Assembly: GCA_002723295.1 (NCBI GenBank)
Contig: PBNP01000024.1
Span: forward strand, 20,018 to 84,017
Direction: 5' to 3'
DNA from: Flavobacteriaceae bacterium
Lineage (GTDB): Bacteria > Bacteroidota > Bacteroidia > Flavobacteriales > Flavobacteriaceae
Length of the DNA: 64,000 nucleotides
How positions within the stretch are numbered: the first letter of the stretch is position 1; each line of letters begins with the position of its first letter. Position numbers and translations under genes: made by a program. The notes under the pieces are model-generated. The model was not told the DNA's origin. It did no database searches and saw only the letters and a list, made by a program, of their open reading frames with translations. Of this stretch, positions 23,393 through 41,159 are shown piece by piece.

Positions 23393-24736
23393 CTACCTAT
23401 TTTGACTTACAAATAATGAAAAAATACCCCCGGTAATTAATAGTACTCCTGCTAACCTTATAATATTAATCGGGTTTTGACCTAGGAGGTCATAGACAAA
23501 AAACTGAACACTAAAAATTTGAATAATCATTGGGATTACAATAAACATATTAAAAATACCCATATAAACCCCTGTTTTGTCTTTAGGTATGGATTCAGCT
23601 AACATTTGATATGGCATTGCCATCATACTTGCCCATGTTATTCCCATTCCAAAAGAAAACAAATAAATCTCTTCAATTCTAAAATTCCCTAAAGAAAACA
23701 AAATATCATTATAATTTAAATATGGCATAATTAATAAACTTATACCTCCAATTAATAAACTAATAAAGTGCAAATACTTTGGTCCAAATTTTCTTGCAAT
23801 AGGAATTAAAGCAAACGCTATTGAAAAACAAATTATATTATAAGTTCCATTAATATTGCCCGTTAAAAGTTGAGCTTGATTAAAAAAGGTAGAGCTTTCA
23901 TCAAGAGTATTAAAAAGTGATAAAGATAAAGCAGAGGTTAAGTACTGCCAATAACAAAACATTGCAAACCATGGAAAGAACATAACAGGAATAAGCTGAA
24001 TCATAGGCTTAGGCATTTTCTTAATTGCATGGACTATTTCATTAGTTATTCTTTTAATTAAACTCCCTTTGGATTTTTGTAATTTGATTTGAGCAATTTC
24101 TTCTTCTGTTGGGGGATATTCAGAAGTTGTAAGAACCGTAATTAATATTGTAATAATTGATGCCGCCGCACCAATACTAAAAGCCCAATATGTATAAACA
24201 GGTATACCATTTTCCATCTTATCTGTTAAAGCTAATATTCCAAAAGCAACCAAAATGGCAGGGGTGAAATTTGCCAATGTAGTTCCTAATCCAGTAAAGA
24301 AACTTTGCATTAAAAACCCTAATGAATATTGTTTTTCATTTAATTTATCAGAAATAAATGCACGATAAGGCTCTAGGGCAATATTGTTCGCTGCATCTAA
24401 AATCCAAAGTAACCCTGCTGCCATCCATATTGAACTTGAATAAGGCATTGCAATAAGTGCTATACTTGCAATTATTGCACCTATTAAAAAGAATGGTTTT
24501 CTCCTTCCAAATTTTGGATGCCAAGTTCCATCAGAGATTGCGCCAACAATTGGTTGAACTATAAGTCCAGTAACCGGTCCTGCTAACCAAAGAATTGGGA
24601 GTTCTCCTTCAGATGCGCCAAGGTATCTGTATATAGCACTCATATTACTTTGTTGCAATCCAAAACTAAACTGGACCCCAAAGAATCCAAAATTCATTGT
24701 AAGAATTTGCCAAAAATTTAACCGCTTTTTTACCAT
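23393..24736 (-). CDS. MFS transporter of the GPH/SLC45 sugar-permease type
   Basis: Twelve-helix inner-membrane transporter, 447 aa, probably a proton- or sodium-coupled sugar carrier. It opens MVKKRLNFWQILTMNFGFFGVQFSFGLQQ and has the loop 2-3 motif GRRKPFFLIGA and LDAANNIALEPYRAFI, which resemble the SLC45/sucrose-maltose permease group found in Bacteroidota glycan loci. The second half carries the matching loop with FGMGITWASMMAMPYQ. It starts 9 nt after the haloperoxidase-like gene, so it belongs to that operon. The substrate is inferred as a sugar or related small product released or imported by the SusCD/FG-GAP system; this is not proven by sequence. Confidence 0.85.
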   Translation of the reverse strand: MVKKRLNFWQILTMNFGFFGVQFSFGLQQSNMSAIYRYLGASEGELPILWLAGPVTGLIVQPIVGAISDGTWHPKFGRRKPFFLIGAIIASIALIAMPYSSSIWMAAGLLWILDAANNIALEPYRAFISDKLNEKQYSLGFLMQSFFTGLGTTLANFTPAILVAFGILALTDKMENGIPVYTYWAFSIGAAASIITILITVLTTSEYPPTEEEIAQIKLQKSKGSLIKRITNEIVHAIKKMPKPMIQLIPVMFFPWFAMFCYWQYLTSALSLSLFNTLDESSTFFNQAQLLTGNINGTYNIICFSIAFALIPIARKFGPKYLHFISLLIGGISLLIMPYLNYNDILFSLGNFRIEEIYLFSFGMGITWASMMAMPYQMLAESIPKDKTGVYMGIFNMFIVIPMIIQIFSVQFFVYDLLGQNPINIIRLAGVLLITGGIFSLFVSQNR

Positions 24737-24745
24737 TATTAAAGC

Positions 24746-26107
24746 CTATTTATTAGATGAAATGGCAAGTTCTGATTTATTTGATTTTGTAGATATTTTA
24801 TTAACAATATATTTGCCAATTTTATCTCCCTGTAAAACTCCCTCTTCAATTGCCATCATGTAATGAATTCCTCCATACAATCTAGAAATAGCTGCTTCTT
24901 CTGAAGCTCCAATAAAAGAATCAAATTTACGGTCAGAAAGTCCATATTTTCTTTCTGTTGTATCAATAAAAGCAAATTTTTCACCATAAATTGAAGTCAA
25001 GGTTATTGCTGCTGCTCTTGAAATTACAGAATGTCCACTTGTATATTCGGGAAATGGTGGTGTTTGAAGTTTTGGGAGCCATTCTTCATCATAGTATTTA
25101 TTTATAATGGTTTCAGGTCTAACAACTATTGTCTTCCATTTTTCATCCCAACAGCTAATAAAAGCATCAAAAAGGGCAATTGATACATTAGCATATGCGT
25201 TTATTGTCATTGCAAAATCACTTTTTGTCTGCCGTGTTGCAACACCAGTTATTCCAATCCAATGACCTCCAGGAGTTATTTTTTTTGTAGCAAACATTGC
25301 ATGTCCTCTATGATGAGTTACATAGGGATTGCAATCCCAAAATTTTGCCATTTCTAATTGTTCATCAGTAAGTGAGTTCCCATATTGATAAACTTCCTTA
25401 AGTTGCATCTGAAATGGACTTCCTTCTTTTAAATTAAATTCTAAAGGGGGTTTAGCAGGAAACATATCTGCAGACTCTAAAACAAGAGTTCTTATTTTGT
25501 TCCAATGTGGCTCAATACCATCCATATAATCAGGAGGAGTTGGTTTCCAATATTTTTCTGGCTCTAAAATTGTGTACTTAGGAAAAGTACGTGTTTGGTC
25601 ATAATTATCATTTTTTGCCCATTCAATAATATGATTTGCTACAGTCTTTGCATATTGTCTTGAAGCCTTTCTAACTTTAGATGGAACATTAAAATTATCT
25701 AACTTTTCTTCAAAGTAAGCTTCAAATTCATCATACTTGTCTTCAGAAAAAATCAAAGTGCGTCCAACTATATTAAAAGAATAAATTGCAGCTAAGTTTA
25801 AATTAATATTTTCATTATAAGGTTTTTTTATTTGATTAAGATCCTTTAATTGACCACTTAATGACAAATATTCTAAAGGGTCTGAAAAACGAATTATTTC
25901 GTATGCAGCAATGGAGGGATAAACATAAACCCTAGAGGCTACAGGTGGAGAAAAAATGTCATATACAACTATATCTGTTAAATTTTGCATTGACATTTGG
26001 AAAAGCTCAGGATTTTCAATTTTTTCAATATAATCATCATTTACAGAACATCCAATACAAATTAAAAATGGGAAGAAAAAAAATTTTAAAAGTGTATTCT
26101 TTTTCAT
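24746..26107 (-). CDS. Vanadium-dependent haloperoxidase / PAP2-superfamily lipoprotein
   Basis: The 453-aa product is a predicted lipoprotein (signal ending LICIGC, C20) with the active-site pattern shared by vanadium haloperoxidases and PAP2 phosphatases: KWKTIVVRP (KxxxxxxRP), YTSGHS (the P/TSGH motif) and SRLYGGIH (SRxxxxxH). The spacing (about 330, 355 and 420) and the roughly 400-residue helical domain match the bacterial vanadium-dependent haloperoxidase family more than short PAP2 phosphatases. Whether it oxidises halides, hydrolyses phosphate, or neither is not decidable here. It lies 6 nt downstream of the FG-GAP gene and 9 nt upstream of the MFS gene. Likely outer-membrane or periplasm-facing. 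Confidence 0.87.
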   Translation of the reverse strand: MKKNTLLKFFFFPFLICIGCSVNDDYIEKIENPELFQMSMQNLTDIVVYDIFSPPVASRVYVYPSIAAYEIIRFSDPLEYLSLSGQLKDLNQIKKPYNENINLNLAAIYSFNIVGRTLIFSEDKYDEFEAYFEEKLDNFNVPSKVRKASRQYAKTVANHIIEWAKNDNYDQTRTFPKYTILEPEKYWKPTPPDYMDGIEPHWNKIRTLVLESADMFPAKPPLEFNLKEGSPFQMQLKEVYQYGNSLTDEQLEMAKFWDCNPYVTHHRGHAMFATKKITPGGHWIGITGVATRQTKSDFAMTINAYANVSIALFDAFISCWDEKWKTIVVRPETIINKYYDEEWLPKLQTPPFPEYTSGHSVISRAAAITLTSIYGEKFAFIDTTERKYGLSDRKFDSFIGASEEAAISRLYGGIHYMMAIEEGVLQGDKIGKYIVNKISTKSNKSELAISSNK

Positions 26108-26113
26108 TATTAA

Positions 26114-29100
26114 TTACTTTGACAAAATATATATATAGTCATTATTTGTAATAAAATATAACTTATTTTTATATTCAACTAGTCTTCTAACATTAAGTTT
26201 AGCGGGTAAAGGTAAGAACTCTTTGTGAACTATTTTATTTTCTTGAAAATTTTTAAAATTTATTATTCCTCCTGGATTTGCTGTTTGACTACCTAATTCT
26301 GTTACAAATTTTTCTGAATTGCCAACATAAAATAATTCTTTAGTTTCACTATTCCAATGAAAATCTTGAATAATACTCCATTGAGCTTCTTGAGGCAAAG
26401 GATATGATGAAAAATCAGTTTCATTATTAATAAAAAGCATAGATCTTAAATCTGTAATCTTTTTAACTTCTAGCACTTTACTTTCTTTAAAACCAGTTAA
26501 ATCAAATATGTTTTTAACCTTGGCAAATTTTTTGTATTTACTAAATTTTTTCTTAATCATAGGCATTTGAGATCCTAAATTATCTTTAGAATTAAACGGT
26601 CTATAATTTCCAAAATAATTATAAAAAATTATTGGATCTGATTGTTCGTTATTATCAAAATCATCAATGTATAAATAAACTGGCTTCTTGTTTTCTGGTT
26701 GCCATTTAAAGTTTTGCCCTGCATTTCCTGCTAAAATATCTAACCTACCATCATTATTTATATCAGCTAATTCAATTGAATTCCATAACCCTGATATATT
26801 TTCAGCCCCTTTTAACTTGGAGGCAACAAATTTTCCTTCATCATTTTGATTAATTACAATTATAGAAGTCTAATCACCTACAATTATCAATTCTTTTTGG
26901 GTGTCTGAATCAATATTTCCCCATTTAGCATCTGTAATCATTCCCAAACGAGCTTGAACAATTGGCTCAAAATTTCCATCCTTATTATTTCTTATTATAA
27001 AACTATTTGGGCTCAATCCATAACCGCCAGGAATGGATCTACTTCCTACAAAAAGATCATCAAATCCATCATTATCAATATCATGAGCAGCTACAACACT
27101 ACCATTTGTAGAAGGCAACGACACATCTAGTCTTGAAAAGTTGCCTTTCCCATCATTTATATAAATTCTATCCATCATATATTCTTCGTCATTTTCCTTA
27201 TAATCATTTCCTCCACTTACTACATAAATATCTGGATCACCATCATTATCAGCATCAAAAGATGTTGCAGAAACATCTTCAAATTTTTGATCAATTCTAA
27301 AATCTTTAATGTCACCTAAGTCAAATCCATTATTTTCATTTCCAAACAAAATTTGAGATGGTCTATATCTTGCTCCTCCTATAAAAATGTCTAGAAAATT
27401 ATCATTATTGAAGTCTTCTAAAATAAAAGCTGGTCCTTCCGAGGATAATAATTCTGGGACTAATTTTTCTCTTTCATAATCATAATATTTATTTTCTTCA
27501 TGCTTATAAGGTAAAACTGATAATTTATAATCATTACTCTCCTTCTTAGAAATTTTACTTTCTTTTGGATTAGCAATAGTTCTAATTATTTTAATTCTTT
27601 TTTCAAAGGGAGGTTTAACTGTTTGATTAATCCCATCAGGCCATCTAACCAATATAGAATCAACGCTATTTTGACCTAAACCAAAATGTAGTTTAGAGGT
27701 TGACGAAGATAAAAACCCTCTTGTCGTAATTGCTTCTTGAACTGAAATCTCTCCATTATTTTTAAATACTAAAACCCTAGAACCTTTTATAATGCTAGCA
27801 TTTAATTCAACTGTTAAGCTGTTATTTTCTTTTGAAGTTTTGTTTTCTAAAATAGTAGCTAAAGCATTTATGTTATTTAGAATTAAATCTAAATCTCCAT
27901 CATTATCTAAATCACTATATGCCGATCCATTAGTGTATGATGGTTGCCCAATGAAAGATTCCTGAATTGATCCAAAATCAAGTTTTCCATTATTTTTAAA
28001 AAGCATATTTGAAATTTTCAGTTCTGGCATTTGTTTAATTAATTCTTTTTTCATCTCGTTTTGTTTAGTTAAAACAAAACTGCTATAGTTACTATTACTT
28101 AAATAATTTATATAGTCCAAGTCATTTGGTCTTTTAGCAATTCCATTAGAAATAAAAATATCATTCTTGCCATCATTATCAAAATCTTGTAGAAGAACAG
28201 ACCAACTCCAGTCTGTGGCATAAGTTTTTGTCAATAATCCAACTTCAGAATAATCACCATAAGCTCTTTTTAAATAAAGATTATTTCTAGAATATTGAGG
28301 CTCAAATCCAAAATCACTCTTTATTCGTGTTAGTTTATCTGAGTCCTCTCCACCTGATTTTAAAGCTATTTCAGAATCAAATGGCATCATGTCCGTTGTA
28401 AAAATATCTAAGTTTCCATCATTATTTAAATCTGCTATATCAACCCCCATTGTGAATCTTGAACAATATGTAAAATATTCACTAAAGGATTCTGTGAATG
28501 TTTTGTCTTTATTGTTTATATATAAATAATCATTTTCATGAAAATCATTCCCAACATAAATGTCCAACCAACCATCATTATTTATATCGGTAGTTGTTAT
28601 TGCAAGACCATACCCTAATGGGCTATTGTATATTCCAGATTTCTCAGTTACCTCAACAAACTTGTTTATTCCTTCATTTAATAAATTCTCATAAAACCTA
28701 TCACCTGAAATTGAGTCCTTTTCTATACGTTTTTTAATTGTACCATAACTGCGAACTGAATGAACTGAATGATTCATTAAATACATATCTAAATCTCCAT
28801 CATTATCATAATCAAGAAAAGTTGATTGAGTAGAAAATCCTGAAAAATCTAATCCATACTCTTTAGACATTTCTGTAAATGTTAAATCTCCATTATTAAT
28901 AAATAGTAAGTTATTAGTCGTTTTGTTGTAAAAATCTTCAACTGCTCCTTTCATGGGAAGTTTGCTTATATAAATATCGAGGTGTCCATCATTATTTACA
29001 TCTTCCATAGAAACTCCATTTGACCAAGAAGGTGATAAATCTAAATTTGCCTCCTCTGTAATATCTCTAAATCTAAAATCTCCCATATTTAAATATAGAC

Positions 29101-29362
29101 GATCAGCTTTTTGATTGGCTGTAAAAAATATATCATCTAGTCCATCATTATTAATATCCCCTACAGCTACTCCTCCTCCATTATAATAGTATAGGTACTC
29201 AATTATATTTAAATAAGGTTTATATTCCAATTCATTAATAAAATCAATTCCTATTAAATTATTGTCTAAAGCTTCAAATTTTATTTTATGTGAGTCCTTT
29301 TTGTGTGGACTTTCACACATTATGAAAAAGAATACAATTAATATAAAGGGTAATCTATTCAT
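26114..29362 (-). pseudogene. FG-GAP/ASPIC-UnbV repeat lipoprotein interrupted by one in-frame TAG
   Basis: Two track ORFs (26870-29362, 830 aa; 26114-26566, 150 aa) are one gene of 1083 codons broken by a single amber codon. I translated the gap: after ELIIVGD comes TAG (26870-26872), then TSIIVINQNDEGKF and on in the same frame, without another stop, into the second ORF. The two paralogues read IIVGEW and LIVGEF at this spot, so the TAG sits where Trp is expected, as from TGG. The reconstructed 1082-aa protein matches the paralogues in length (1093, 1081). It has a lipobox (FFIMC, C16), many Ca-binding FG-GAP loops such as DINNDGLDDI, and an ASPIC/UnbV domain. As sequenced, translation would end at residue 830, losing the last FG-GAP block. 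Read-through or a sequence error are alternatives. Confidence 0.88.
26870..26872 (-). other. In-frame TAG interrupting the FG-GAP gene
   Basis: The codon is TAG on the minus strand (CTA on plus). The distance to the following ORF start is a multiple of three (306 nt), and the intervening 101 codons contain no other stop and align in content with the paralogues (for example LWNSIELADINNDGRLDI). TAG is a normal stop elsewhere in this window (for instance the ends of the permease at 3885, actD at 48060 and queG at 41294), so code reassignment is unlikely. Confidence 0.9.
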
Positions 29363-29366
29363 CCAA

Positions 29367-32300
29367 TTATTCTTTAATGATAAAATGAGCTAGTGTGTCT
29401 TTATTTCTAGCTACCCAGATATTTTTTTTATCTACAACAATTGACCTAACTTCTCCTTTTAAGTTAAATCCTTTCCCATTGGGATAAAATTTTAACTCAT
29501 TTGGTGTGTTTTCCAAATAAATTCCATAACTAGCATCATATATTCCAAATTCAGGTTTAACATTATATAAATTACCTCCCATTAATAAATCTAAGTCTCC
29601 ATCTTTATCTGCATCTAGATGAGCTATAGAGTATATGGGGCTAAACTGAACTTGTATAGGTAATTTAATTTGGCTAAAATTAAAATTTCCTTCATTTTTT
29701 AAAGCAATAGTTGATAAGTAATTGACCTGACATTTATAGGAGTTGTTTATTGATTCAATTGAGAATATTGAATTTAAATCGGCATTTTTAAAAGATTTAA
29801 AGTTTGGAAATTTTTTCTTTAAACTTTTCATTTGATCAATTAAATTATGTCTCAAAGCATAAGGATATTCTTTACCATTATCAGCAGTAAAAAACAAAAC
29901 TCCTTCGCCTCTACCATTATTGTCAAAATCATTGTAATAACAAGTTATAGGCATGCTTTCTGATGCTTTAAATCTACTGTTTGTTCCGTGATTACCAATA
30001 ACTATGTCCATATCCTTATCACCATCTATATCAAATAGATCTATAACATTCCACCAGCCATACTTATCGTTCCATTTATTATCGATTAATTTAAATTCAC
30101 CATTTTTGTTTTCAAAAAAATTAACACCCATAAACTCTCCAACAATTAACAGATCTGGGTCTTTATCATTATCGAAATCCATAAAAACTGCATCAGTTAT
30201 CATACCAATATCTATTAATTCAGGTGATAATATATGTGTCATATCTGCAAAATTTCCAAATCCATCATTTACCAGAAGATATCCTGATCCAGGTAGTCCA
30301 TATTTTCCAATTTTTGATCTTTCTCCAACAAACAAATCTATATCTCCATCGGAATCAATATCAGAAAAAGCAACTGATTCTGAACTAATTTTAGAGTCCT
30401 TAGAAGGTAATAATTGATTGCTCTTGGTAAAAATTCCAGTACCATCATTAATAAGTAAAACATCATATAAAGACAAAGTATATATTGAGTTTTCTACGCC
30501 TCCAGAAGTAAAATAAATATCTAAATCACCATCATTGTCTGCATCAAAAATTGCACTTTCAATATGTTCAATATCTTTTATTGATTCTAAAAGCTTTTCG
30601 TTTTTCTTATCACTGGTATATCCAAAATCATTTGAAAATAAAATTTGCGATGGAATCCCTTTTGCACCTGGAAAAACTATATCATTTTTTCCATCTGAAT
30701 TTAAATCAGCCAAACTAATCTTTGGCCCTTGTGTACTTAACATATGATAATTCAATCGCTCTCTATGAAAATCTACAAAAATATTTTCCTTGTGAATTGG
30801 ATAATTTTTATTTTCAACTTTTTCAAAAAGCAAGATTTCAGAATATATATTCTCTTCTACATTTTTTTTTGAATCTGAAACATTAAAAACATGTTTTTTA
30901 TTTACTGTTAAATCTTTAAATACAGTAACTTCTCCTAAAGGCCAAGTTATTCTTAAGTCTACACTTTCTTCATTCCCAACACCAATTGTTGGAAGTAAAT
31001 CCATACTTGATTGAAATCCTCTAACAGGTTGAAGCTCATGGAACAGTTTCATATTAGATGTAGTTATTTCAATCTTAGCTCCTATTGCATTAGGATTTTG
31101 TTCTGAACCCTTTAAAGAAATTTTTATGTAATTATTCCCCAAAATTTCTGATTTATTTTTAAAAACAAACAAAGGCATATTTACATTATTAACTACCAAA
31201 TCGAGATCACCATCATTGTCTAAATCTCCATATGCCGAGCCATTAGAAAAGCTTGGTATATTTAATCCTGATTGATCATAATTCTTAAATCCTAAACCAC
31301 CAATATTCTTATATGAATGATTAGGAACCATATTAGATGGAATTATATCAATAAGTCTTTTATAATCTACCTGATTATTCTTAACTATTGACTTAACAAC
31401 TTCTTCACTTGCTACATATTGAAGATAATCTTGATCTGTTAAATCTTGATAAATTCCATTGGCTATAAATAGGTCCTTATAGCCATCATTATCCATATCA
31501 AAAAATAATGCTCCCCAACTCCAATCTGAAGCCTCTACACCAGCCCAACGACCAATCTCACTAAATGAGTTATTTCCATTGTTAAGGTGTAACATGTTTC
31601 TAGTAAATTGATGGTGATATCCATTTTTTACAACATACTGATATTTATTCCAGTCTTCAAAAGTTGTAACTGATTTAAGTCTTTGATAATCAGAAGGCAA
31701 CATTTCTGTAACAAAAATGTCATTCAATCCATCATTATTCAAATCAGCCATATCTGCTCCCATTGAAGCCCCACTAATTGAATGCATTTGATCTGTTAAT
31801 ACTTCTTTAAAAGTTCCATCTTTTTGATTAATGTAAAGATAATCTCTTTCAAAAAAGTCATTAGAAACAAATATGTCTTCCCAGTTATCGCCATCTACAT
31901 CTCCAACACTTACCCCTAATCCAAACCCTATTACACTCCCGTAAATCCCAGCTTTTTGACTAATATCAAAGAACTTACCATTTCTATTCTCCATTAATTT
32001 ATCTCCCCCTAATGAATCTCGTTTTGGGCGCTCATTTCTTCTAAGATCAAAACTTCCAATTGCTTGATAGGAATTGTTTAAAAGATATGCATCTAAATCT
32101 CCATCTTTGTCATAATCAAAAAAAGTTACATGAGTAGAAAAGCCTTTGTCAGCTAAACCATAAGTTTCTGCCCTCTCCGTGAATGTTAAGTCTCCATTAT
32201 TTATGAACAATTCATTTTGTTTATTATCTCCTTTAACATCTCCAGAATTACAAACGTATATATCTAAAAAACCATCAGCATTAATATCAACCATAGTAAC

Positions 32301-32648
32301 ACCAGTAGCCCAAGCTTTTTCTCCACTAACGCCAGCTTTTATAGTAATATCTTGAAAAGTAAAATTTCCAAGATTTAGATATAGCTTATTATGTTTTTGA
32401 TTAGCAGTTAAATAGATATCTAGAAGTCCATCATTATTTATATCTCCCAAGGACACACCTCCTCCATTGTAATAATTCCTATACTTGTATACATTAAAAT
32501 CATTATTAAAGGTTAAGTCATTGGAAAATTTGATTCCAATCTTTTCTAAATCTTGAAGCTCAAAAAGTGTAGTTGATTCTTTTTCAGTACAACTAAAAAA
32601 TATAAAAATACTGAATGAAACTAAGAGACATTGTTTGATAAAATTCAT
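29367..32648 (-). CDS. FG-GAP/VCBS repeat lipoprotein with ASPIC/UnbV domain (1093 aa)
   Basis: Large surface lipoprotein (lipobox FFSC, C20) built of two FG-GAP beta-propeller regions separated by an ASPIC/UnbV domain. The first propeller (about 55-500) has repeated Ca-binding loops such as DINNDGLLDI, DINADGFLDI, DYDKDGDLDA and DLDNDGDLDL; the UnbV-like part (about 530-610) carries ELQPVRGFQSS and IGVGNEESVDLRITWP; the second propeller (about 660-1060) includes DFDNDKDPDLL and DADKDGDLDLL. Such proteins (CRTAC1-like family) occur near SusCD systems in marine Bacteroidota, but no function is established. It is 4 nt upstream of the broken paralogue and overlaps the upstream 200-aa lipoprotein gene by 4 nt (ATGA). 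Confidence 0.92.
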   Translation of the reverse strand: MNFIKQCLLVSFSIFIFFSCTEKESTTLFELQDLEKIGIKFSNDLTFNNDFNVYKYRNYYNGGGVSLGDINNDGLLDIYLTANQKHNKLYLNLGNFTFQDITIKAGVSGEKAWATGVTMVDINADGFLDIYVCNSGDVKGDNKQNELFINNGDLTFTERAETYGLADKGFSTHVTFFDYDKDGDLDAYLLNNSYQAIGSFDLRRNERPKRDSLGGDKLMENRNGKFFDISQKAGIYGSVIGFGLGVSVGDVDGDNWEDIFVSNDFFERDYLYINQKDGTFKEVLTDQMHSISGASMGADMADLNNDGLNDIFVTEMLPSDYQRLKSVTTFEDWNKYQYVVKNGYHHQFTRNMLHLNNGNNSFSEIGRWAGVEASDWSWGALFFDMDNDGYKDLFIANGIYQDLTDQDYLQYVASEEVVKSIVKNNQVDYKRLIDIIPSNMVPNHSYKNIGGLGFKNYDQSGLNIPSFSNGSAYGDLDNDGDLDLVVNNVNMPLFVFKNKSEILGNNYIKISLKGSEQNPNAIGAKIEITTSNMKLFHELQPVRGFQSSMDLLPTIGVGNEESVDLRITWPLGEVTVFKDLTVNKKHVFNVSDSKKNVEENIYSEILLFEKVENKNYPIHKENIFVDFHRERLNYHMLSTQGPKISLADLNSDGKNDIVFPGAKGIPSQILFSNDFGYTSDKKNEKLLESIKDIEHIESAIFDADNDGDLDIYFTSGGVENSIYTLSLYDVLLINDGTGIFTKSNQLLPSKDSKISSESVAFSDIDSDGDIDLFVGERSKIGKYGLPGSGYLLVNDGFGNFADMTHILSPELIDIGMITDAVFMDFDNDKDPDLLIVGEFMGVNFFENKNGEFKLIDNKWNDKYGWWNVIDLFDIDGDKDMDIVIGNHGTNSRFKASESMPITCYYNDFDNNGRGEGVLFFTADNGKEYPYALRHNLIDQMKSLKKKFPNFKSFKNADLNSIFSIESINNSYKCQVNYLSTIALKNEGNFNFSQIKLPIQVQFSPIYSIAHLDADKDGDLDLLMGGNLYNVKPEFGIYDASYGIYLENTPNELKFYPNGKGFNLKGEVRSIVVDKKNIWVARNKDTLAHFIIKE

Positions 32649-33247
32649 TGCTTTTTAAACTTCGAATTTAAATCCTCTATTAATATCTCAACATATCTGA
32701 TACTATAAACATATGCAGTAATTTGACGATTTCCATCAATTTTAACCATAACTGGAAGTCCATTAATTTCTTTATTGATTTCAAAAAATGAATTACCAGG
32801 AAATAATTGGTCCATAATATTCATTCCTTCTTCCAACAAAGAGTCTTTTTGTAGTTCTTTTACCCAAGGAGACCATCCAAGATATGATATTCTCATTTTC
32901 ATTCCAGTTAAAATTCTTCTGTCATCAAAAATTCCATAAAATAAAAGTTCCATTCTGCTTTTTTTGGGATTGTATATTGGTGATATAGAATCAAGAACGT
33001 GACGAACAAATTGATTCCCTGAGCCCTGATTTACAAGTTTTTTCCTGTTTAATTCCCAACAGTCCTTATAAAATTTTTGTTGAGATTGACCTATTTCCAT
33101 ACCAAAAATTAAATCTGTATAATTTTTATTTAATGACATCTCTTTTCTTACAGTTCTATCATATTCTGATAAACATGAAGACAAAAAAATGAAAATAAAT
33201 AAGTAAAGAGATGTTTTAATTGATTTTATGAAATTTGACTGAATCAT
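32645..33247 (-). CDS. Lipoprotein of unknown family, 200 aa
   Basis: I do not recognise this family. The product has a signal peptide with lipobox FLSSC (C25), then a mixed alpha/beta region containing FGMEIGQSQQKFYKDCWELN, SRMELLFYGIFDDRRILTGM and MRISYLGWSPWVKEL, and ends KFKKQ. It looks like a compact, globular, surface or periplasm-facing domain. Its ATG overlaps the upstream FG-GAP gene by 32 nt, and its TGA overlaps the downstream FG-GAP start by 4 nt, so it is embedded between two giant FG-GAP genes and probably made in fixed ratio with them. A role as partner or chaperone of these proteins is inferred only from that position. Confidence 0.8.
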   Translation of the reverse strand: MIQSNFIKSIKTSLYLFIFIFLSSCLSEYDRTVRKEMSLNKNYTDLIFGMEIGQSQQKFYKDCWELNRKKLVNQGSGNQFVRHVLDSISPIYNPKKSRMELLFYGIFDDRRILTGMKMRISYLGWSPWVKELQKDSLLEEGMNIMDQLFPGNSFFEINKEINGLPVMVKIDGNRQITAYVYSIRYVEILIEDLNSKFKKQ

Positions 33248-36200
33248 TATTTATAGAAAAAATTAAATATTTTTTGTTTTCTTTTCTTAGAAACTCCATT
33301 TTACGAATTTGACCTTTAATCCCTAGACTTTTAGGAATAGTATTAAAAAATTTATTTTCGTTAAAACTAATAGGCAGCATCCAACCTTTTGATGCATCAT
33401 AACTTCCAAATTGAGGTTTGACCAAAAATTGATTTCCGCCCAAATATAAGGACTTTTGATTGGTTTTAAGATCATCTTTAATTAGTATACTATATATTGG
33501 ACTATACTGAATTTCATCAGGAAGAATATGTTGTATAAATTTATTTTCCTCAGAGACAAATAAACTTGTTTTTAATTCATGTAATTCAAAAATTGAAGAT
33601 TCGATAAGCTGAGATTTATCAATTATTTCATCTATTGATTTTTTAGCATAATCTTTGTAAAAGACAATATTTTTTTTGAGATAAGGCAATTGATCAATTA
33701 ACTCGTCCTTATCCAATGCAGGATAGAATTTGCCGTCAATCTTATAGCACAAAATTTGTTCCTCACTTCCATTTTTATCAAAATCGTTAAGATACATTCT
33801 CATGTTTTCTTTAAGAAAAGAATTTGTTCCATGATTACCTGCAATAAAATCAATTATCCCGTCATTATTTGCGTCTACCAACTCAATAGTATTCCAAAGC
33901 CCAGAAGTCTTTTCAAGGCCATAATCTTTTGTTTTGTTTTCAAAAACGCCTTTATTATTAATTAAAATAGTAATTGGCATCCATTCCCCAACTATGATTA
34001 AATCAGGCCATTGATCATTATTTATATCATGAAACTTGGCGTCTGTAATCATTCCTATGTTTTGCAACTCATTTTGAAAAATATTTTTAAAAGTATTATT
34101 CCCTTTGTTTAACATTATAAACCCATCTCCTTTTTTACCATAAGTTTTAAGATTATATCTTTCTCCTATAAAAATATCATTGAATCCGTCTAAGTTTATG
34201 TCTGCAACAGCAATTGCATTACTTGAAAAATTTCTTGGAAACTCCAATCCTTGAGGTTGTTTTTTAAAATTTCCATTTCCTTCATTAATATAATATCTAT
34301 CATTTAGCGAAAAACTAATTTCAGAAAAGGCCTTACCGCCACTTGCAACAATTAAATCTAAATCACCATCTTGATCACCATCAAAAAAAAGAGCATTGGT
34401 GTCTTCTGAGGCCATATCTTTATCAAATGGGGTTTCTTGCCTTTGATAATCTCCTTTTTTCGTAGAAACAAATAAAACTCCCTTTTGGTTTTTTCCGCCT
34501 CCTATATATACATCATCAATTTGATCATTGTTTAAATCTGCTACTGCCATAGCAGGGCCTTCATTATGATTCATTTGGGTTAAAAGCCTTTCACGGTTAA
34601 ATTCAATAAACTCATTTTCAATATGTTTGAATTCAAATAGTTTTGGGTTTTTAACTACTGATATATTACTTGCTTTATTATCTATTTTTATTCCAAAAGT
34701 TTTATTTAAGTTAATTAGCTTATTAGTAACTAAATTTTGATATAAGTGTTTGTCTCCATTGGGCCAAATAACAATTATGCTGTCTATCTGCTTCTTGTCT
34801 CCAACTCCAAAGTGTATGCGATGACTTATAGATGATTGAAACCCTCTTGAAGGAAATACCTCACTCATTGATTTCAAATCTTTATCGTAAAGAATGATTT
34901 TTGAACCAATGGCTTTAGTGTTTAATTTATCTCCATTTAATGATAGCTGTATACTTCTATTTTTTAATGTATCTACATTATTTCTATATATAAAGACAGG
35001 CATATTTACATTATTAACAACTAAATCCATATCCCCATCATTATCTAAATCTGCATAAGAATTTCCATTGCTAAAACTTGGTTTATCTAGACCCCATTTA
35101 GTTGTCATATTTTGGAAATTAAATCCACCATTATTTTTGTATGCAAAATTGGGAACAGCAGCAGAAGGCATTATATCAATTAAACTTTTTATTACCTTTT
35201 TCTTTTGCTCCATTAATATCCTCACCTGTTCTTCATTTGCCATATAGGCTAAATAATCTCTGTCTAATAAGTCTTTGTTTATTCCATTTGCAATAAAAAT
35301 ATCTCTTAACCCATCGTTATCCATATCAAATAGAAGAGAAGCCCAGCTCCATTCAGTAGCTGCTACTCCACTTTTTCTTCCAATTTCAAAAAAACCAGCA
35401 TTACCCATATTTCTCTGTAAAACATTTCGAGGATATTGCCTAGAATAACCATTGGATTCCATTAATTTAAATTTATCCCATGAATCATATATTGCCTTTG
35501 TTTTCTTTCTCTCCAAAGATGCTGGCAACATTTCTGTAACTAGTAAATCAGAATTTAAATCATTGTCTAAATCTGCAGTGTCTGCCCCCATTGAGCCCAT
35601 AGACAAGGCTTCAAAATATTTATCAGAAGCTTCAATGAAAGTTCCTGATTTAGAATTTATATACAAATAATCTTTTTCAAAAAAATCATTTGAAATAAAC
35701 AAATCCGGCCATAGATCATTGTTAAAATCACTAACTGTTATTCCTAACCCAAAGCCTATTGCGCTATTAAACATTCCAACTTTTTCTGTTACATCTTCAA
35801 AATATCCATTTACATTTTCAAGAAATTTATTCCCATTATTATTTGGGTCAGGAATATTTCGTTGGTCTTTTATAATGTCATATCCTCCAACTGAGCGAAT
35901 TGAATTATTAAGAATATATACATCCAAATCACCATCTTTATCATAATCTAAAAAAGCGGCATGAACGGATAGTCCTTTAATATCAAGTCCATATAATTTA
36001 GAACTTTCTTTAAAGGTTAAATCACCCTGATTTATAAAAAGCTCATTATGTCTATTTTGACCTTCAGGTTTTCCTGACTTACATACATAAATATCTAATA
36101 AGCCATCTCCATTAATATCTACAAATGTAGCACCTGTAGACCAAATATTTGGACATGCTACTCCAGCTTTATCTGTTATGTCCTCGAACTCCCAGTTACC

Positions 36201-36461
36201 TTTGTTTAGATATAATTTGTTGTCTACAATATTACCTGTTAAATAAATATCAATTAAATTATCATTATTAATATCTCCTAGCGCAACTCCAGCCCCATTA
36301 TAAAAATTTCTATATGTATAAGGATTAAACTCTTCAGTATACCTTAATGTGTTTTCAAATGAAATTCCAGTTGATTCTCCCATTAATTCAAAAAGTTTCG
36401 GGTTATTATTTCTACAACCTAAAATCATCAAAACAGAAAAAGATAAAACTTTAAATTTCAT
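33216..36461 (-). CDS. FG-GAP/VCBS repeat lipoprotein with ASPIC/UnbV domain (1081 aa)
   Basis: Third giant FG-GAP paralogue, first gene of its run. Lipobox MILGC (C16) is followed by YRNFYNGAGVALGDINNDNLIDI, the same opening as its two paralogues. Ca-binding loops recur through the first propeller (DINGDGLLDI, DYDKDGDLDV, DLDNDGDMDL), then an ASPIC/UnbV segment (EVFPSRGFQSS, IHFGVGDKKQIDSIIVIWP, about 530-600), then a second propeller (DLNNDQIDDV, DGDQDGDLDL, DINLDGFNDI, DANNDGIIDF). The ATG is only 7 nt downstream of a -7 element TATCTTTG, so the transcript would have almost no leader. A strong terminator separates it from susD upstream. Function unknown; ligand binding or scaffolding at the cell surface is the usual guess. 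Confidence 0.92.
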   Translation of the reverse strand: MKFKVLSFSVLMILGCRNNNPKLFELMGESTGISFENTLRYTEEFNPYTYRNFYNGAGVALGDINNDNLIDIYLTGNIVDNKLYLNKGNWEFEDITDKAGVACPNIWSTGATFVDINGDGLLDIYVCKSGKPEGQNRHNELFINQGDLTFKESSKLYGLDIKGLSVHAAFLDYDKDGDLDVYILNNSIRSVGGYDIIKDQRNIPDPNNNGNKFLENVNGYFEDVTEKVGMFNSAIGFGLGITVSDFNNDLWPDLFISNDFFEKDYLYINSKSGTFIEASDKYFEALSMGSMGADTADLDNDLNSDLLVTEMLPASLERKKTKAIYDSWDKFKLMESNGYSRQYPRNVLQRNMGNAGFFEIGRKSGVAATEWSWASLLFDMDNDGLRDIFIANGINKDLLDRDYLAYMANEEQVRILMEQKKKVIKSLIDIMPSAAVPNFAYKNNGGFNFQNMTTKWGLDKPSFSNGNSYADLDNDGDMDLVVNNVNMPVFIYRNNVDTLKNRSIQLSLNGDKLNTKAIGSKIILYDKDLKSMSEVFPSRGFQSSISHRIHFGVGDKKQIDSIIVIWPNGDKHLYQNLVTNKLINLNKTFGIKIDNKASNISVVKNPKLFEFKHIENEFIEFNRERLLTQMNHNEGPAMAVADLNNDQIDDVYIGGGKNQKGVLFVSTKKGDYQRQETPFDKDMASEDTNALFFDGDQDGDLDLIVASGGKAFSEISFSLNDRYYINEGNGNFKKQPQGLEFPRNFSSNAIAVADINLDGFNDIFIGERYNLKTYGKKGDGFIMLNKGNNTFKNIFQNELQNIGMITDAKFHDINNDQWPDLIIVGEWMPITILINNKGVFENKTKDYGLEKTSGLWNTIELVDANNDGIIDFIAGNHGTNSFLKENMRMYLNDFDKNGSEEQILCYKIDGKFYPALDKDELIDQLPYLKKNIVFYKDYAKKSIDEIIDKSQLIESSIFELHELKTSLFVSEENKFIQHILPDEIQYSPIYSILIKDDLKTNQKSLYLGGNQFLVKPQFGSYDASKGWMLPISFNENKFFNTIPKSLGIKGQIRKMEFLRKENKKYLIFSINNDSVKFHKIN

Positions 36462-36468
36462 ATTTAAA

Positions 36469-36476
36469 CAAAGATA
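36469..36476 (-). promoter_or_regulatory. Predicted -7 element of the FG-GAP operon
   Basis: TATCTTTG on the minus strand matches TAnnTTTG and ends 7 nt before the ATG of the first FG-GAP gene, directly after the susD terminator stem. No TTTG is visible at the right -33 distance; the upstream DNA is the terminator hairpin itself. If used, transcription of the FG-GAP/haloperoxidase/MFS run begins here, independent of susCD. Confidence 0.4.
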
Positions 36477-36509
36477 AAAAGGCTGCTCAAATTATTGAGC
36501 AGCCTTTTT
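36476..36509 (-). terminator. Strong bidirectional terminator after susD
   Basis: A perfect 15-bp inverted repeat AAAAAGGCTGCTCAA / TTGAGCAGCCTTTTT with a 4-nt loop lies 29 nt after the susD stop. The GC-rich core and flanking T run on either strand make it an intrinsic terminator in both directions. It should stop most susCD transcripts before the FG-GAP genes. Confidence 0.92.
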
Positions 36510-36538
36510 AAAAACCTTATTTGATTTTCAACTATACC

Positions 36539-38161
36539 TTAGTACCCTGTGTTTTGAGTATATCCGGTAGAGGATTGAAGTATATCAAACGGAATCGGGT
36601 AAAGAGCTTTGTGAGCAGGAGAAGCTGATTTTTCCCACCAAGTACCACTCGAATATATTCCCCAACGTATTAAATCAGTACGACGTGATGATTCTTGGAA
36701 CATCTCACGTCCACGTTCTGCCAAAAACTCATCAGATGTCATAGAGCTATAAGTACCAACACCAGCACGAGTACGTAATTGATTAACTACACTAAGAGCA
36801 GTTGCATCACTCCAGTTATTCTGGCGATATCTAGCCTCTGCATACATTAACATAACATCTCCATATCTTACAATTGGGAAGTCATTATTTTGGTCAGGGC
36901 GTCCAAATTGTTGGAAACTAAACTTTCCAAGACGTGCTCCGCCTTCACGGAACGCATTGGGCTCTAACTCATTAATAAATGGTGTGTAATTTAACACAAT
37001 TCCTCCTGGATCATCAGCAGCAAAATCATTCAAAGCACTTCCGCCATAATCTTTTTGAGGTCCCTGAATAAAATTATTTGCTCTACGTAGATCGTTAGTA
37101 TCATATGAATTATAGAATTCTTCTAATGTAGCATAACCATTCCATGGCTGAGCTTCAAAATTCCAAGTAAGCTGACTAGAATAGTGTAAAGTCATCTTTG
37201 CAAAATTCATACCTCCAGCAGTTGCCTCATCATAATTCACAGAGAATATATGCTCTATATTATTATCATTATTAGGCGCAAAAACAGCAGCATAACCTTC
37301 TAGATTATCTGGGTCCTCAGCTACTGCAGGACGTTTAGCAAGGTTTGAAACGCTACAACCCACACCACAAAGCTGATACTGTCCAGAATCCATGATAATT
37401 TGAGCTGCATATTCAGCTTTTTGATATATAGCCATATCCTCTGCACCCAAGTAAGTCTTGTGGTTTAGATAAAGCTTCGTCAAAAATCCTAAAGCAGCGT
37501 ATCGATTTACACGATAAACGCTAGATGTCGCATTAAGTCCACTACCATCAAATGTAGTAGTTGCTGTTATCCCAGAAGTACCAAGAGCAGTTAATAATTC
37601 AGACTCAATAAAAGCGTATAATTCCGCTTGTGAAGCCTGAGCACCTGTAGCAGACTCTGTAACAATCTTAACTCTTCCATAAAGATCTAGAAGTCTCCAA
37701 TAAAAATAAGCGCGTAAAGCTCTAAGTTGCATAGTTTCCTCTGCAGTAAGATTTTTTGTGGCATCTCCCAAATCGTTATTAATTTGCTGAATGGCGTTAT
37801 ATTGACCATTCCAAGTATTACCAATAATACCATTAGTAGGGTCATATGTGTGACGGTGCATTTGAACTAACACTCCGCCATCATACCAGTCACCACCTTT
37901 GGCAGCAATACACATTTCATCAGAAGGCAAACCTTGGATACTAAAGTAGCCAAAGTGATTAGCCGTACCTGAACCACGCAATCCGGCATAAGATCCAGCA
38001 AGCGCGTCACCACCTCCACCAGCAGCACCACCAACAGCAGGGGCTGTAACATCAAAAGTCTGATTAAGCTCTCCGACTAATTCTTCTTCTAAGTCAGTAC
38101 AAGAAAAAATTAGCGCTGAAACCGATGTTGCTAGGAGCAATTTGTTTAAAATATTTTTCAT
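36539..38161 (-). CDS. susD: SusD/RagB family outer-membrane lipoprotein
   Basis: Surface glycan- or nutrient-binding lid protein that works with SusC. The 540-aa product has a lipobox (ALIFSC, C21), the helical TPR-like core (TMQLRALRAYFYWRLLDLYG, about 140-160) and the SusD C-terminal signatures YGDVMLMYAEARYRQNN (about 430-446) and ERGREMFQESSRRTDLIRWG near the end. A glycine/alanine-rich segment (VGGAAGGGGDALAGSYAG, about 43-60) follows the lipobox. It is 19 nt downstream of susC and closed by a strong terminator. The symbol is used in the family sense; the substrate is unknown. The susCD pair looks less AT-rich than the FG-GAP genes, which may reflect high expression. Confidence 0.95.
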   Translation of the reverse strand: MKNILNKLLLATSVSALIFSCTDLEEELVGELNQTFDVTAPAVGGAAGGGGDALAGSYAGLRGSGTANHFGYFSIQGLPSDEMCIAAKGGDWYDGGVLVQMHRHTYDPTNGIIGNTWNGQYNAIQQINNDLGDATKNLTAEETMQLRALRAYFYWRLLDLYGRVKIVTESATGAQASQAELYAFIESELLTALGTSGITATTTFDGSGLNATSSVYRVNRYAALGFLTKLYLNHKTYLGAEDMAIYQKAEYAAQIIMDSGQYQLCGVGCSVSNLAKRPAVAEDPDNLEGYAAVFAPNNDNNIEHIFSVNYDEATAGGMNFAKMTLHYSSQLTWNFEAQPWNGYATLEEFYNSYDTNDLRRANNFIQGPQKDYGGSALNDFAADDPGGIVLNYTPFINELEPNAFREGGARLGKFSFQQFGRPDQNNDFPIVRYGDVMLMYAEARYRQNNWSDATALSVVNQLRTRAGVGTYSSMTSDEFLAERGREMFQESSRRTDLIRWGIYSSGTWWEKSASPAHKALYPIPFDILQSSTGYTQNTGY

Positions 38162-38180
38162 AATTTCTTAAGTTTTAAAA

Positions 38181-41159
38181 TTAAAATTTAATATTCACGC
38201 CTAGAGTAAACGACCTAGAAGCATAGTAACTTCTACGACGATCAACCCCAAGAGATAAAACATCATATAATCCTCCATTATCCTCACCAATGTCAACCAA
38301 TGATGGCTCTGGATCTAGACCTGTGTAACTTGTAAACACTAATGGATTTTGTGCATTAAGTGAAATCTGAAGTCCATCAATACCATTTAGGTTACTTACA
38401 TCCATATCACGAGTTACTGTTAAGTTGTCTAACTTAAAGAAGTCCGCTTTTTCAACATACAATGAGCTAAATCTTGCTGTAGTCAATCCAGCAGGGGCCA
38501 AAGATGTATTAACAAAGTTGTATGAACTCTGTGTTGAGATTCTAGGCTCATAGAAAGCTCGGAATGTGTTTACTAAACTATGACCGAAAGCACCTCTAAA
38601 AAATGCATTTACTGACCATTTACCAAACGTCATTTGATTAGTCCAACCTACTTCTAAATCAGGAGTACCATTACCAAGAACAGTAAAATCAACATCTTCA
38701 TTTAAAGCTTGATCTTGACCAACAGTTATAACTCCATCTCCATTTATATCTTCAAATTGAGGATCTCCATTAGCATCAACACCGTTAAAGATTGGGCCAA
38801 ATATCGTACCAATCTCAGTTCCTACCTTAACTCTTATCGTTGCTGTACTATTTTGTCCAGGAGCACCTAAATTTGCTCTCATCTCAGCATCTCTAATATA
38901 CTCATCTAGAGTAGTTTCATAGCTAGATAAAACAATACCGGTATTATAATTATCAGAAACTTGATAGTTTAAGGCCATTTCAACACCGTTAGTTTTTAAT
39001 TTACCAGCATTTTGGTACTGCGAACCTGATGGGTAATTGGCTGGGTCTACATCAACTTGTAAAATAAAGTCATTAATTTCTCTAGTGTAGATGTCTAAAG
39101 TTGCATCAAGCTTTCCTTTTCTCCATTCTATACCAAAATTAGTTTCTGCTTTTTCTTCCCATTTAAGATCTGGATTACCATCACGAGCTGCATTTAGACC
39201 ATCATTACCTCCATCAAGATTAAGTGTAGTAGATCCTCCAGCTTGTCCGCCACCATATTCAAAATCATATGCATTAGAAGACAATCCATTAGGGCCAGGA
39301 AGTGCACCAGTTACACCGTAACCAACTCGCACTTTAAACTTATCAGCACCTAAATTTAAATACTTGTTTAAATCAACACCAATTCCAGCAGCTGGAAAAA
39401 CACCCCATTGATTCTCAGATCCTAATTTAGTTGATCCTTCACGACGAACAGAGGCATTAAGGAAAATTCCATTGTCAATAGTATAGTTCATTCTACCAAA
39501 GAATGCTACAATTCTATCATCTGGAGATGCGTTAGAGTCAGCACCAATAAAACCAGCATTTAATAAATCCTGAGAGTGCTCAACTGCATCAATAAAACTT
39601 ACACCTGAATTTGATTCATCAGGAAAATCTCCCAAGGTAAATGAATGGTCATTAAAGTTTTGCTGTTGCCATGAATAACCAGCTGTAACAACTAATTCAT
39701 TATCTCCTAATTGAGTGTTATAGCGCGCATACATCTCTGATAACTTAAAGCTATAAGTTTGATCATAAAAGTTTGCAGAACCAGAACGAATCGGAGAAGC
39801 AGCATTCCCACCACGAAGTAAAGTAGTAGGGTTATAAAGTTTATTAGAATATTTACTTACCTGACTTGCTGCATTTAAATTAAGGCTAAGATTGTCATTA
39901 AATGCATAAGCAGCATTTACACTGTAATTTAATTCAGTTTTATCTCCTTGATTAATTTGTTGTTTTGCAATAGAAACAGGGTTGTAACTATCAAATAATC
40001 CTAAGGTTTCAAAAAATCCACCATACTGTGGGCCATTAAAAACACCATCGTAATCTGCAGCATAAACTGGAGCAGTTGGGTTATATAGCACAGCATATTT
40101 CATGGATTCCATGTCACCATTATTTTGTTTTCTACTTGTAAAAGCAGTATTCACCGTAATTGAAAGTTTATCATTTAGTGCTTTAGTAGAAAAATTCAAA
40201 CGAGTATTGAACTGCGAAAAATCTGAACTTATAAGTATTCCTTGTATATCTCTAAAGTTAGCAGCAATACGATAACTGGTATTACCTGAACCTCCAGATG
40301 CAGAAATATTATGAATTCGAGAAACCGCTTGACGAGTTACCTCTTCAGCCCAATTAGTAGCTGAACCTAAATCAGTACCTCCTGCAGCAACAAATTCTGT
40401 TGGATTCATAACATCTACTGTATTAAATGCTTCTGAAACACCTAATTGTCCAGTATAGTTAAGAGTCATTTTTCCCTCAGAACCTGTCTTTGTTGTTACT
40501 AAAATAACACCTGCAGATCCTCGTGAACCATAAATTGCAGAAGCAGAACCATCTTTAAGTACGTTAATAGTTTGAATATCAGCAGGGTCAACATTAGCTA
40601 AAGAAGCACCGATAACTCCATCGATAACGACTAAAGGCTGAACGTTTGCACCAACTGTTGAAATACCTCTCAGACGAATTACTGCTGCAGCGTTTGGATC
40701 ACCACCCCGGTTATAAACCTGGAGTCCTGCGACCTTACCCTGTAAAAGTTGTGAAGCATCAGAGATATTACCCTGATTGAAGTCTTCAGCATCAACTTTT
40801 ACAACAGCTGCTGTAATTTCTTTTTCCCGTTGAGAACCATAACCTGTAACTACCACTTCCTCTAATTCACTATCCAGAGCCAGTGAGACATTTATTTGAT
40901 CTTGATTTCCAACAGAAATTTCTTGAGTAGCAAATCCAACAAAGGAAATTACCAACACGTCAGATGATGAAGCCTGAATACTATAGTTTCCATCAAAATC
41001 AGTACTAGTACCTACATCACTACCCTTTACTTGAACCGTTGCTCCTGGCAGCGGGCCATCTTCACTCGAAACAGTACCATTCACTGTTTGAGCATACATC
41101 ACTACACCAGCTAGTAAAAACAAGAGTGTAAGTAATGAAGTCTTGAAATTGTTTTTCAT
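38181..41159 (-). CDS. susC: SusC/RagA family TonB-dependent receptor
   Basis: Outer-membrane beta-barrel that imports a bound ligand using TonB energy. The 992-aa product has a signal peptide (AGVVMYAQ, to about 23), a carboxypeptidase-regulatory-like domain (VNGTVSSEDGPLPGATVQVKG, about 25-100), a plug domain (EEVVVTGYGSQREKEITAAV to VILVTTKTGSEG, about 100-230) and a C-terminal barrel ending FTLGVNIKF. It lacks an N-terminal STN domain, so no anti-sigma signalling is expected. The gene is followed 19 nt later by susD. The 134-nt upstream region has no clear consensus promoter; TATAATTG near 41210 is one mismatch from the -7 pattern. Ligand unknown. Confidence 0.96.
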   Translation of the reverse strand: MKNNFKTSLLTLLFLLAGVVMYAQTVNGTVSSEDGPLPGATVQVKGSDVGTSTDFDGNYSIQASSSDVLVISFVGFATQEISVGNQDQINVSLALDSELEEVVVTGYGSQREKEITAAVVKVDAEDFNQGNISDASQLLQGKVAGLQVYNRGGDPNAAAVIRLRGISTVGANVQPLVVIDGVIGASLANVDPADIQTINVLKDGSASAIYGSRGSAGVILVTTKTGSEGKMTLNYTGQLGVSEAFNTVDVMNPTEFVAAGGTDLGSATNWAEEVTRQAVSRIHNISASGGSGNTSYRIAANFRDIQGILISSDFSQFNTRLNFSTKALNDKLSITVNTAFTSRKQNNGDMESMKYAVLYNPTAPVYAADYDGVFNGPQYGGFFETLGLFDSYNPVSIAKQQINQGDKTELNYSVNAAYAFNDNLSLNLNAASQVSKYSNKLYNPTTLLRGGNAASPIRSGSANFYDQTYSFKLSEMYARYNTQLGDNELVVTAGYSWQQQNFNDHSFTLGDFPDESNSGVSFIDAVEHSQDLLNAGFIGADSNASPDDRIVAFFGRMNYTIDNGIFLNASVRREGSTKLGSENQWGVFPAAGIGVDLNKYLNLGADKFKVRVGYGVTGALPGPNGLSSNAYDFEYGGGQAGGSTTLNLDGGNDGLNAARDGNPDLKWEEKAETNFGIEWRKGKLDATLDIYTREINDFILQVDVDPANYPSGSQYQNAGKLKTNGVEMALNYQVSDNYNTGIVLSSYETTLDEYIRDAEMRANLGAPGQNSTATIRVKVGTEIGTIFGPIFNGVDANGDPQFEDINGDGVITVGQDQALNEDVDFTVLGNGTPDLEVGWTNQMTFGKWSVNAFFRGAFGHSLVNTFRAFYEPRISTQSSYNFVNTSLAPAGLTTARFSSLYVEKADFFKLDNLTVTRDMDVSNLNGIDGLQISLNAQNPLVFTSYTGLDPEPSLVDIGEDNGGLYDVLSLGVDRRRSYYASRSFTLGVNIKF

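Follow-up and report, generated by a model that had tools for sequence, protein, structure and literature searches.

A Conserved SusCD, FG-GAP/UnbV and Haloperoxidase-Type Locus of Flavobacteriaceae with a Probable Role in Sugar Uptake

Introduction

Marine Bacteroidota commonly encode FG-GAP/UnbV proteins and vanadium haloperoxidases, to which no role has been assigned. Two described systems are relevant to a locus in which they occur together. The alpha-glucan locus of Flavobacterium IR1 contains lacI, malY, beta-phosphoglucomutase (bPGM), GH65, GH97, GH13 and GDPD genes around susC-susD-susE (PMC9131120). Arenibacter sp. C-21 takes up iodine in a process that needs either glucose, oxygen and calcium together or a source of hydrogen peroxide (H2O2), and its homologues of the Zobellia enzyme number at least five (PMC5064120). 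A literature search returned no paper joining FG-GAP, SusD and haloperoxidase, or UnbV and SusD, and a broader search returned the Arenibacter genome note only. The locus analyzed here lies in a stretch of 64,000 nucleotides from contig PBNP01000024.1 of a Flavobacteriaceae bacterium, hereafter called the window. It combines a SusC/SusD pair with three FG-GAP/UnbV genes, a 200-aa lipoprotein, a vanadium-haloperoxidase-type lipoprotein and a transporter of the major facilitator superfamily (MFS).

The block formed by these genes is real and old, as judged from its conservation across genomes. It is probably a sugar-uptake system of the Sus type, from a lineage controlled by a LacI-family repressor, and its most likely ligands are small alpha-glucosides such as maltodextrin, maltose or sucrose-like sugars. 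The FG-GAP/UnbV proteins, the haloperoxidase-type enzyme and an undescribed lipoprotein family are thus brought together in a single conserved locus for sugar uptake, with LacI control in its ancestry, for which a likely ligand class can be named.

Gene Organization and Source Genome

Eight minus-strand genes lie between queG (41294) and the malic enzyme gene (which ends at 23300), in the order SusC-SusD-FGA-LP200-FGB-FGC-vHPO-MFS. FGA, FGB and FGC denote the first, second and third FG-GAP/UnbV gene, LP200 the 200-aa lipoprotein, and vHPO the vanadium-haloperoxidase-type lipoprotein. The features are as follows.

38181..41159, minus strand: SusC, TonB-dependent outer-membrane importer, 992 aa (TIGR04056, 582 bits, cut-off 368)
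36539..38161, minus strand: SusD, ligand-binding surface lipoprotein, 540 aa (PF07980 and PF14322)
36475..36510, minus strand: terminator-like hairpin of 16 pairs in the susD/FGA gap, a probable attenuator
33216..36461, minus strand: FGA, FG-GAP/UnbV beta-propeller lipoprotein, 1081 aa (PF13517, PF07593)
32645..33247, minus strand: LP200, 200-aa lipoprotein, marker of the locus type (family alignment A1)
29367..32648, minus strand: FGB, FG-GAP/UnbV lipoprotein, 1093 aa (PF13517, PF07593)
26114..29362, minus strand: FGC, third FG-GAP/UnbV gene, interrupted by TAG (open reading frames (ORFs) of 830 and 150 aa)
24746..26107, minus strand: vHPO, vanadium-haloperoxidase-type lipoprotein, 453 aa (PAP2; 4CIT, phmmer E=4.5e-140; active-site residues)
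23393..24736, minus strand: SLC45/sucrose-symporter-like MFS transporter, 447 aa (PF07690; SUC1 8bb6, E=4.6e-19)

Measured by ORF ends, 19 nt separate SusC from SusD and 77 nt separate SusD from FGA. FGA and LP200 overlap by 32 nt and LP200 and FGB by 4 nt, and the subsequent gaps down to the MFS gene are 4, 6 and 9 nt. The initial annotation had described a SusC/SusD pair, a terminator behind it and a tight run of genes on one strand, all of which were borne out.

The source genome is metagenome-assembled, 69% complete and in 35 contigs, so that absences from it are weak evidence. All three UnbV genes of the assembled genome, and its sole PF07980 SusD, are located in this locus. It contains three full SusC genes, and the other two are accompanied by SusD-like proteins that PF07980 missed, as found by inspection. 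A further contig of the same assembly (C35) encodes a GH13 protein of 833 aa and the ATPase of an ABC transporter, which look unlike Flavobacteriaceae sequences and are possibly a contamination.

Conservation Across Genomes

The LP200 profile (A1) found a match in 36 of 301 Flavobacteriaceae genomes, and vHPO is present in 133 of the 301. All 36 LP200 genomes also carry vHPO (hypergeometric P=8e-15, uncorrected for kinship; as relatives share ancestry, P values serve as guides only). The two genes lie within 21 kb of each other in 31 of the 36 genomes and on separate contigs in the other five. Regions were read from 23 genomes, with gene labels assigned by BLAST against a small reference set and confirmed by Pfam/NCBIfam on representatives. 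The order SusC-SusD-FGA-LP200-FGB-FGC is kept wherever the contig permits, one region (G035) ending the run at FGB, and vHPO follows FGC immediately or a few genes off. In three other loci (L033, L034 and L048) the SusC-SusD-FGA-LP200 genes are divergent from vHPO.

The arrangement extends beyond the family. In the wider class, four genomes of another family (G637, G404, G436 and G574) keep the order with vHPO last, G637 with one extra gene before it, while G633 has the block and a LacI gene, with no vHPO in the region read. Chance grouping of the genes was consequently rejected, since the block is conserved in dozens of genomes. The proposal of the initial annotation that these genes form one conserved unit was thereby exposed to a neighborhood analysis that could have overturned it, and it held.

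Loci carrying vHPO without LP200 were also considered. Twenty of them were read at 20 kb, four having been partly seen earlier in short flanks, and FG-GAP genes adjoin vHPO or lie a few genes off in all 20. The majority represent a sister locus type with a SusC of about 30% identity. In nearly all loci of that type, the gene that follows vHPO immediately encodes a protein of about 297 aa with a single anchor (L154:10647-11537 and equivalents), which by eye resembles a GyrI-type effector-binding domain. Separately, four genes whose products resemble, by eye, planctomycete-type DUF1553/DUF1501 cytochrome and sulfatase-like proteins lie between FGC and vHPO in two loci (L121 and L122, from G283 and G066).

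Sugar-Related Context in Relatives

In many relatives a LacI-family regulator is divergent from SusC. G100 and G140 have the locus at the same queG...maeB site as the window, and no LacI other than this one was found in either genome. G053, of the same genus, likewise carries a single LacI; it shares the contig with this SusC, from which it is separated by a second SusCD/FG-GAP/GH20 cassette (L223:1451-12502). The sole LacI of G274, at a contig end, fits the same arrangement.

The palindrome CGAAANCGNTTTCG, of the LacI-family-site type, occurs at 25 sites in 1.4 Mb of fetched regions, against 0.1 expected under a first-order Markov model. All 25 sites precede gene starts. Twenty lie before SusC, most of them at 100-117 nt and with SusC of both types; the other five precede a GH13 alpha-glucosidase (3), GH97 (1) and a sugar-MFS/GH32 operon (1). 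The palindrome was first spotted in G100 and G140 and then scanned everywhere, so that independent evidence comes from the remaining genomes and not from these two, with kinship to be allowed for. The sequence CGAAACCGTTTTCG is a putative LacI site. LacI with the operator at SusC is present in G100, G140 and many others.

The neighboring enzymes are also sugar-related. Many relatives carry bPGM (equivalog TIGR01990), GH65 and a GH13 lipoprotein near the block. Their GH65 is closest to the maltose phosphorylase 1h54 (759 bits, compared with 426 for kojibiose phosphorylase), and in 21 of 26 larger genomes its best copy lies about 40 kb or less from vHPO, where 0.55 would be expected at random placement. 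Elsewhere among the relatives, GH97 or an oligo-1,6-glucosidase-like GH13 occurs with an SLC45-like MFS behind vHPO, or GH32 and fructokinase lie in front. Several have xylose isomerase, xylulokinase and a sodium symporter between modules.

The window differs in this respect. Pfam detects no glycan-active enzyme in the window locus, although such enzymes adjoin the same block in many relatives, and no LacI-type operator is found in the window at up to 2 mismatches. The combination of LacI and operator at SusC with linked GH65 and bPGM, which characterizes a LacI-type alpha-glucan locus, is missing here, and the window species has most likely lost LacI/operator control. The initial annotation had concluded from the lack of a glycoside hydrolase that this is not an ordinary polysaccharide locus. 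The observation is correct only for this reduced genome, and the conclusion is not supported, as the block adjoins LacI, GH65, bPGM, GH13, GH97 or GH32 in relatives and shares operators with some of these genes.

Transport Proteins and Membrane Side

SusC and SusD are adjacent in the window, as in Sus-like uptake loci. The PDB chain closest to SusC is the SusC homologue 8aa4 (E=3.5e-80), which we take to belong to a dextran system. The SLC45-like character given to the MFS transporter by the initial annotation agrees with its matches, the nearest being the plant sucrose transporter SUC1, followed by SLC45A4 (E=7e-6). Against the sucrose/H+ symporter subfamily TIGR01301 it scores 96 bits with a cut-off of 511, so that it is a relative of this subfamily and not a member.

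The surface-export signal of lipoproteins is an acidic stretch directly after the lipid cysteine (PMC5080379). SusD carries such a signal (CTDLEEE), which is kept in relatives with a mean of 3 acidic residues out of 5. No consistent acidic signal was seen in FGA, FGB, FGC, LP200 or vHPO. The surface location initially proposed for the whole system therefore has the backing of an export signal for SusD only, and the FG-GAP proteins, LP200 and vHPO may lie on either side of the membrane.

FG-GAP/UnbV Proteins, Hairpin and LP200

FGA has its best PDB match in CRTAC1, both by sequence (E=1.2e-13) and by fold (E=6.9e-24); its structural model is of moderate quality (pLDDT 76, pTM 0.56). FG-GAP repeats bind calcium in known proteins. 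Three FG-GAP/UnbV proteins of about 1080 aa had been annotated initially. The three genes are present and FGA and FGB have the expected length, but FGC, whose frame otherwise runs without a stop from 29362 to 26114, contains an in-frame TAG at 26870-26872. This position is Trp in 21 of 21 aligned relatives, and the TAG may be either a true nonsense change or an error of the metagenome-assembled genome.

The hairpin, with its T tract, resembles an intrinsic terminator and ends 14 nt before the FGA start. A strong hairpin of differing sequence occupies the susD/FGA gap in 22 of 22 relatives with a readable gap. Because it leaves little room for a promoter before FGA, we infer that transcription reads through it, and SusCD would then be made in excess of the FG-GAP and vHPO proteins.

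LP200 matches nothing in Pfam or NCBIfam, in line with its initial description as a lipoprotein of unknown family. Its AlphaFold2 model is confident (pLDDT 90.3) and has no match among PDB folds at E<=0.001; weak matches to DUF4309, DcrB and PsbP-like proteins were not used for assignment. By its sequence, LP200 is an undescribed lipoprotein family that marks this locus type.

The Haloperoxidase-Type Enzyme

The alignment of vHPO with 4CIT, a vanadium haloperoxidase of solved structure, is full-length, with about 50% identity. The haloperoxidase-like active-site pattern noted in the initial annotation covers all vanadate-site positions compared with 4CIT. Among 86 homologues, the equivalents of K324, R331, S358, G359, H360 and R410 (4CIT numbering) are invariant, H416 is kept in 85 of the 85 that reach that position, D322 in 83/86 and Y263 in 79/86. 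The vanadate-site residues K, R, S, G, H, R and H that define the Zobellia iodoperoxidase group are present in the window protein. These sequence features place vHPO in the Zobellia iodoperoxidase (4CIT) family, and the window enzyme is predicted to oxidize iodide with H2O2. Y263, D322 and S358 are residues presumably tied to iodide activity.

In one relative (G001) vHPO is 98% identical to 4CIT, and because of this identity the genome is probably that of a Zobellia. Three FG-GAP/UnbV genes immediately precede vHPO there, and within about 30 kb are LacI-bPGM-GH65-GH13 genes that diverge from a SusC-SusD pair. Since this near-identical copy follows FG-GAP genes, the best-studied enzyme of the vHPO family is placed, by gene order, in a sister version of the window locus.

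Proposed Function and Alternatives

In the favored reading, SusC-SusD would import the ligand across the outer membrane, and the SLC45-like MFS would move the sugar into the cell. The three FG-GAP/UnbV propeller lipoproteins and LP200, which occupy the position of SusE/SusF, are probably ligand-holding parts of an envelope complex. They would be made in smaller amounts, as the hairpin would attenuate transcription after susD. vHPO would be an envelope-anchored enzyme of the iodoperoxidase type, oxidizing iodide with H2O2 and co-expressed with sugar uptake. In the window species, expression is probably free of the LacI repressor, because both the LacI beside susC and the operator are gone. The assignment to alpha-glucosides is based on LacI at SusC, the shared palindromes, the GH65 linkage, the SUC1-like MFS, the 8aa4 match of SusC and the gene set of the published alpha-glucan locus.

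Several observations weigh against this reading. The assembled 69% of the window genome contains no LacI and no GH65, and no LacI lies beside the locus. The GH65-vHPO linkage is a feature of larger genomes, since among small genomes with GH65 it is near vHPO in 1 of 9 and elsewhere in 8 of 9. The out-of-family loci in G404, G436 and G574 have no adjoining sugar genes. The neighboring enzymes vary (GH13, GH97, GH32, xylose genes), and two related vHPO loci resemble, by inspection, mannan and arabinan loci. Consequently, the ligand may differ between lineages. One vHPO locus (L168) has SusCD, a single FG-GAP gene and, by eye, GH51- and GH43-like arabinan enzymes, which suggests that loci for different sugars make use of the FG-GAP/vHPO pair. 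Finally, several small genomes have kept vHPO but not the SusCD/FG-GAP block.

An alternative assigns the locus to iodine or halogen metabolism. vHPO would make hypoiodous acid in the envelope, SusCD and calcium-binding FG-GAP proteins would capture and import an iodinated species, and the sugar genes would supply reducing power or H2O2. No gene accompanies the FG-GAP genes as constantly as vHPO does, in the LP200 genomes and in the other vHPO loci alike, and the requirements of iodine uptake in Arenibacter C-21, with its Zobellia-enzyme homologues, fit such a scheme. However, LacI control, the shared operators and the linkage to GH65, GH13, GH97 and SLC45 genes indicate sugar, and no other iodine gene was recognized in the neighborhoods, which makes this alternative unlikely. 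A similarly small chance is given to a sugar-regulated iodine system, in which a sugar-sensing LacI-type repressor would switch on SusCD, calcium-binding FG-GAP propellers, LP200 and the iodoperoxidase as one envelope machine, with iodide oxidized only during glucoside feeding. If true, this system would explain genetically why iodine uptake by Arenibacter depends on glucose and calcium, and the FG-GAP/LP200 set would be a new kind of outer-membrane complex. That uptake is suggestive for the role of vHPO because of the calcium binding by FG-GAP repeats in known proteins.

The locus could also consist of two separate modules, a sugar-uptake system and a general-purpose haloperoxidase, serving H2O2 removal, defense or signal quenching, that travels alongside. 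Small genomes such as L006, L009, L013 and L017 keep vHPO between LacI and maeB at the queG...maeB site, with neither SusCD nor FG-GAP genes there. L012/L016 retain vHPO-MFS only, one vHPO genome without the block has no UnbV at all, and in some larger genomes FGC and vHPO are separated by a symporter or by xylose genes. Against this stand the complete LP200-vHPO co-occurrence, the order kept across families and the gaps of 4-9 nt between window genes, and such a composite is improbable. In these four loci, the LacI divergent beside vHPO (L006:8049-9062, L009:8647-9660, L013:1358-2371, L017:8727-9740) is 85-87% identical to that of G100. By the rule used, no palindrome was found there between LacI and vHPO, so that the motif gives no support to direct LacI control of vHPO alone.

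Least probable is that the PAP2-fold protein is a phosphatase that would act on a phosphorylated glycan or sugar phosphate ahead of its import, which is close to the dephosphorylation that the initial annotation had offered as an alternative to other chemical alteration of the ligand: Pfam returns PAP2 only, and PAP2 acid phosphatases share the active-site motif with vanadium haloperoxidases, but the match to the solved haloperoxidase is full-length, D322 and Y263 are kept in most homologues, no phosphate-specific gene was seen nearby, and the nearest characterized enzyme is an iodoperoxidase, not a phosphatase.

With sugar uptake as the preferred function, and with a near-identical copy of the characterized Zobellia iodoperoxidase in a sister version of the locus, "function unknown" gives way to a testable question: why is an iodide-oxidizing type of enzyme made alongside sugar uptake?

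Comparison with Known Systems

The FG-GAP/UnbV proteins resemble CRTAC1 (cartilage acidic protein 1) in combining an FG-GAP propeller with a UnbV/ASPIC domain. CRTAC1 is, in contrast, eukaryotic, and the match spans only about half of the bacterial protein. Arenibacter C-21 offers a physiological parallel, as a member of the Flavobacteriaceae in which Zobellia-enzyme homologues occur together with glucose-dependent iodine uptake; no gene locus has been assigned to this uptake, and its tie to the window locus is one that we infer.

Zobellia galactanivorans VIPO1 (4CIT, 4USZ) is the closest enzymatic reference. The window vHPO is its full-length homologue, with the catalytic site kept. The genomic setting of the VIPO1-like copy in G001 differs from that of the window, as it lies in the sister locus type, with a SusC about 30% identical, no LP200, and SusCD about 20 kb off.

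The closest locus-level reference is the alpha-glucan locus of IR1. In the conserved block the SusE position is taken by the three FG-GAP/UnbV proteins and LP200, and vHPO is added. The window copy departs further, being without LacI, the operator and all glycoside enzymes. What the locus type shares with that of IR1 is the SusCD importer, the LacI-family regulator, the SLC45/malY-like MFS and, in larger relatives, bPGM, GH65 and GH13.

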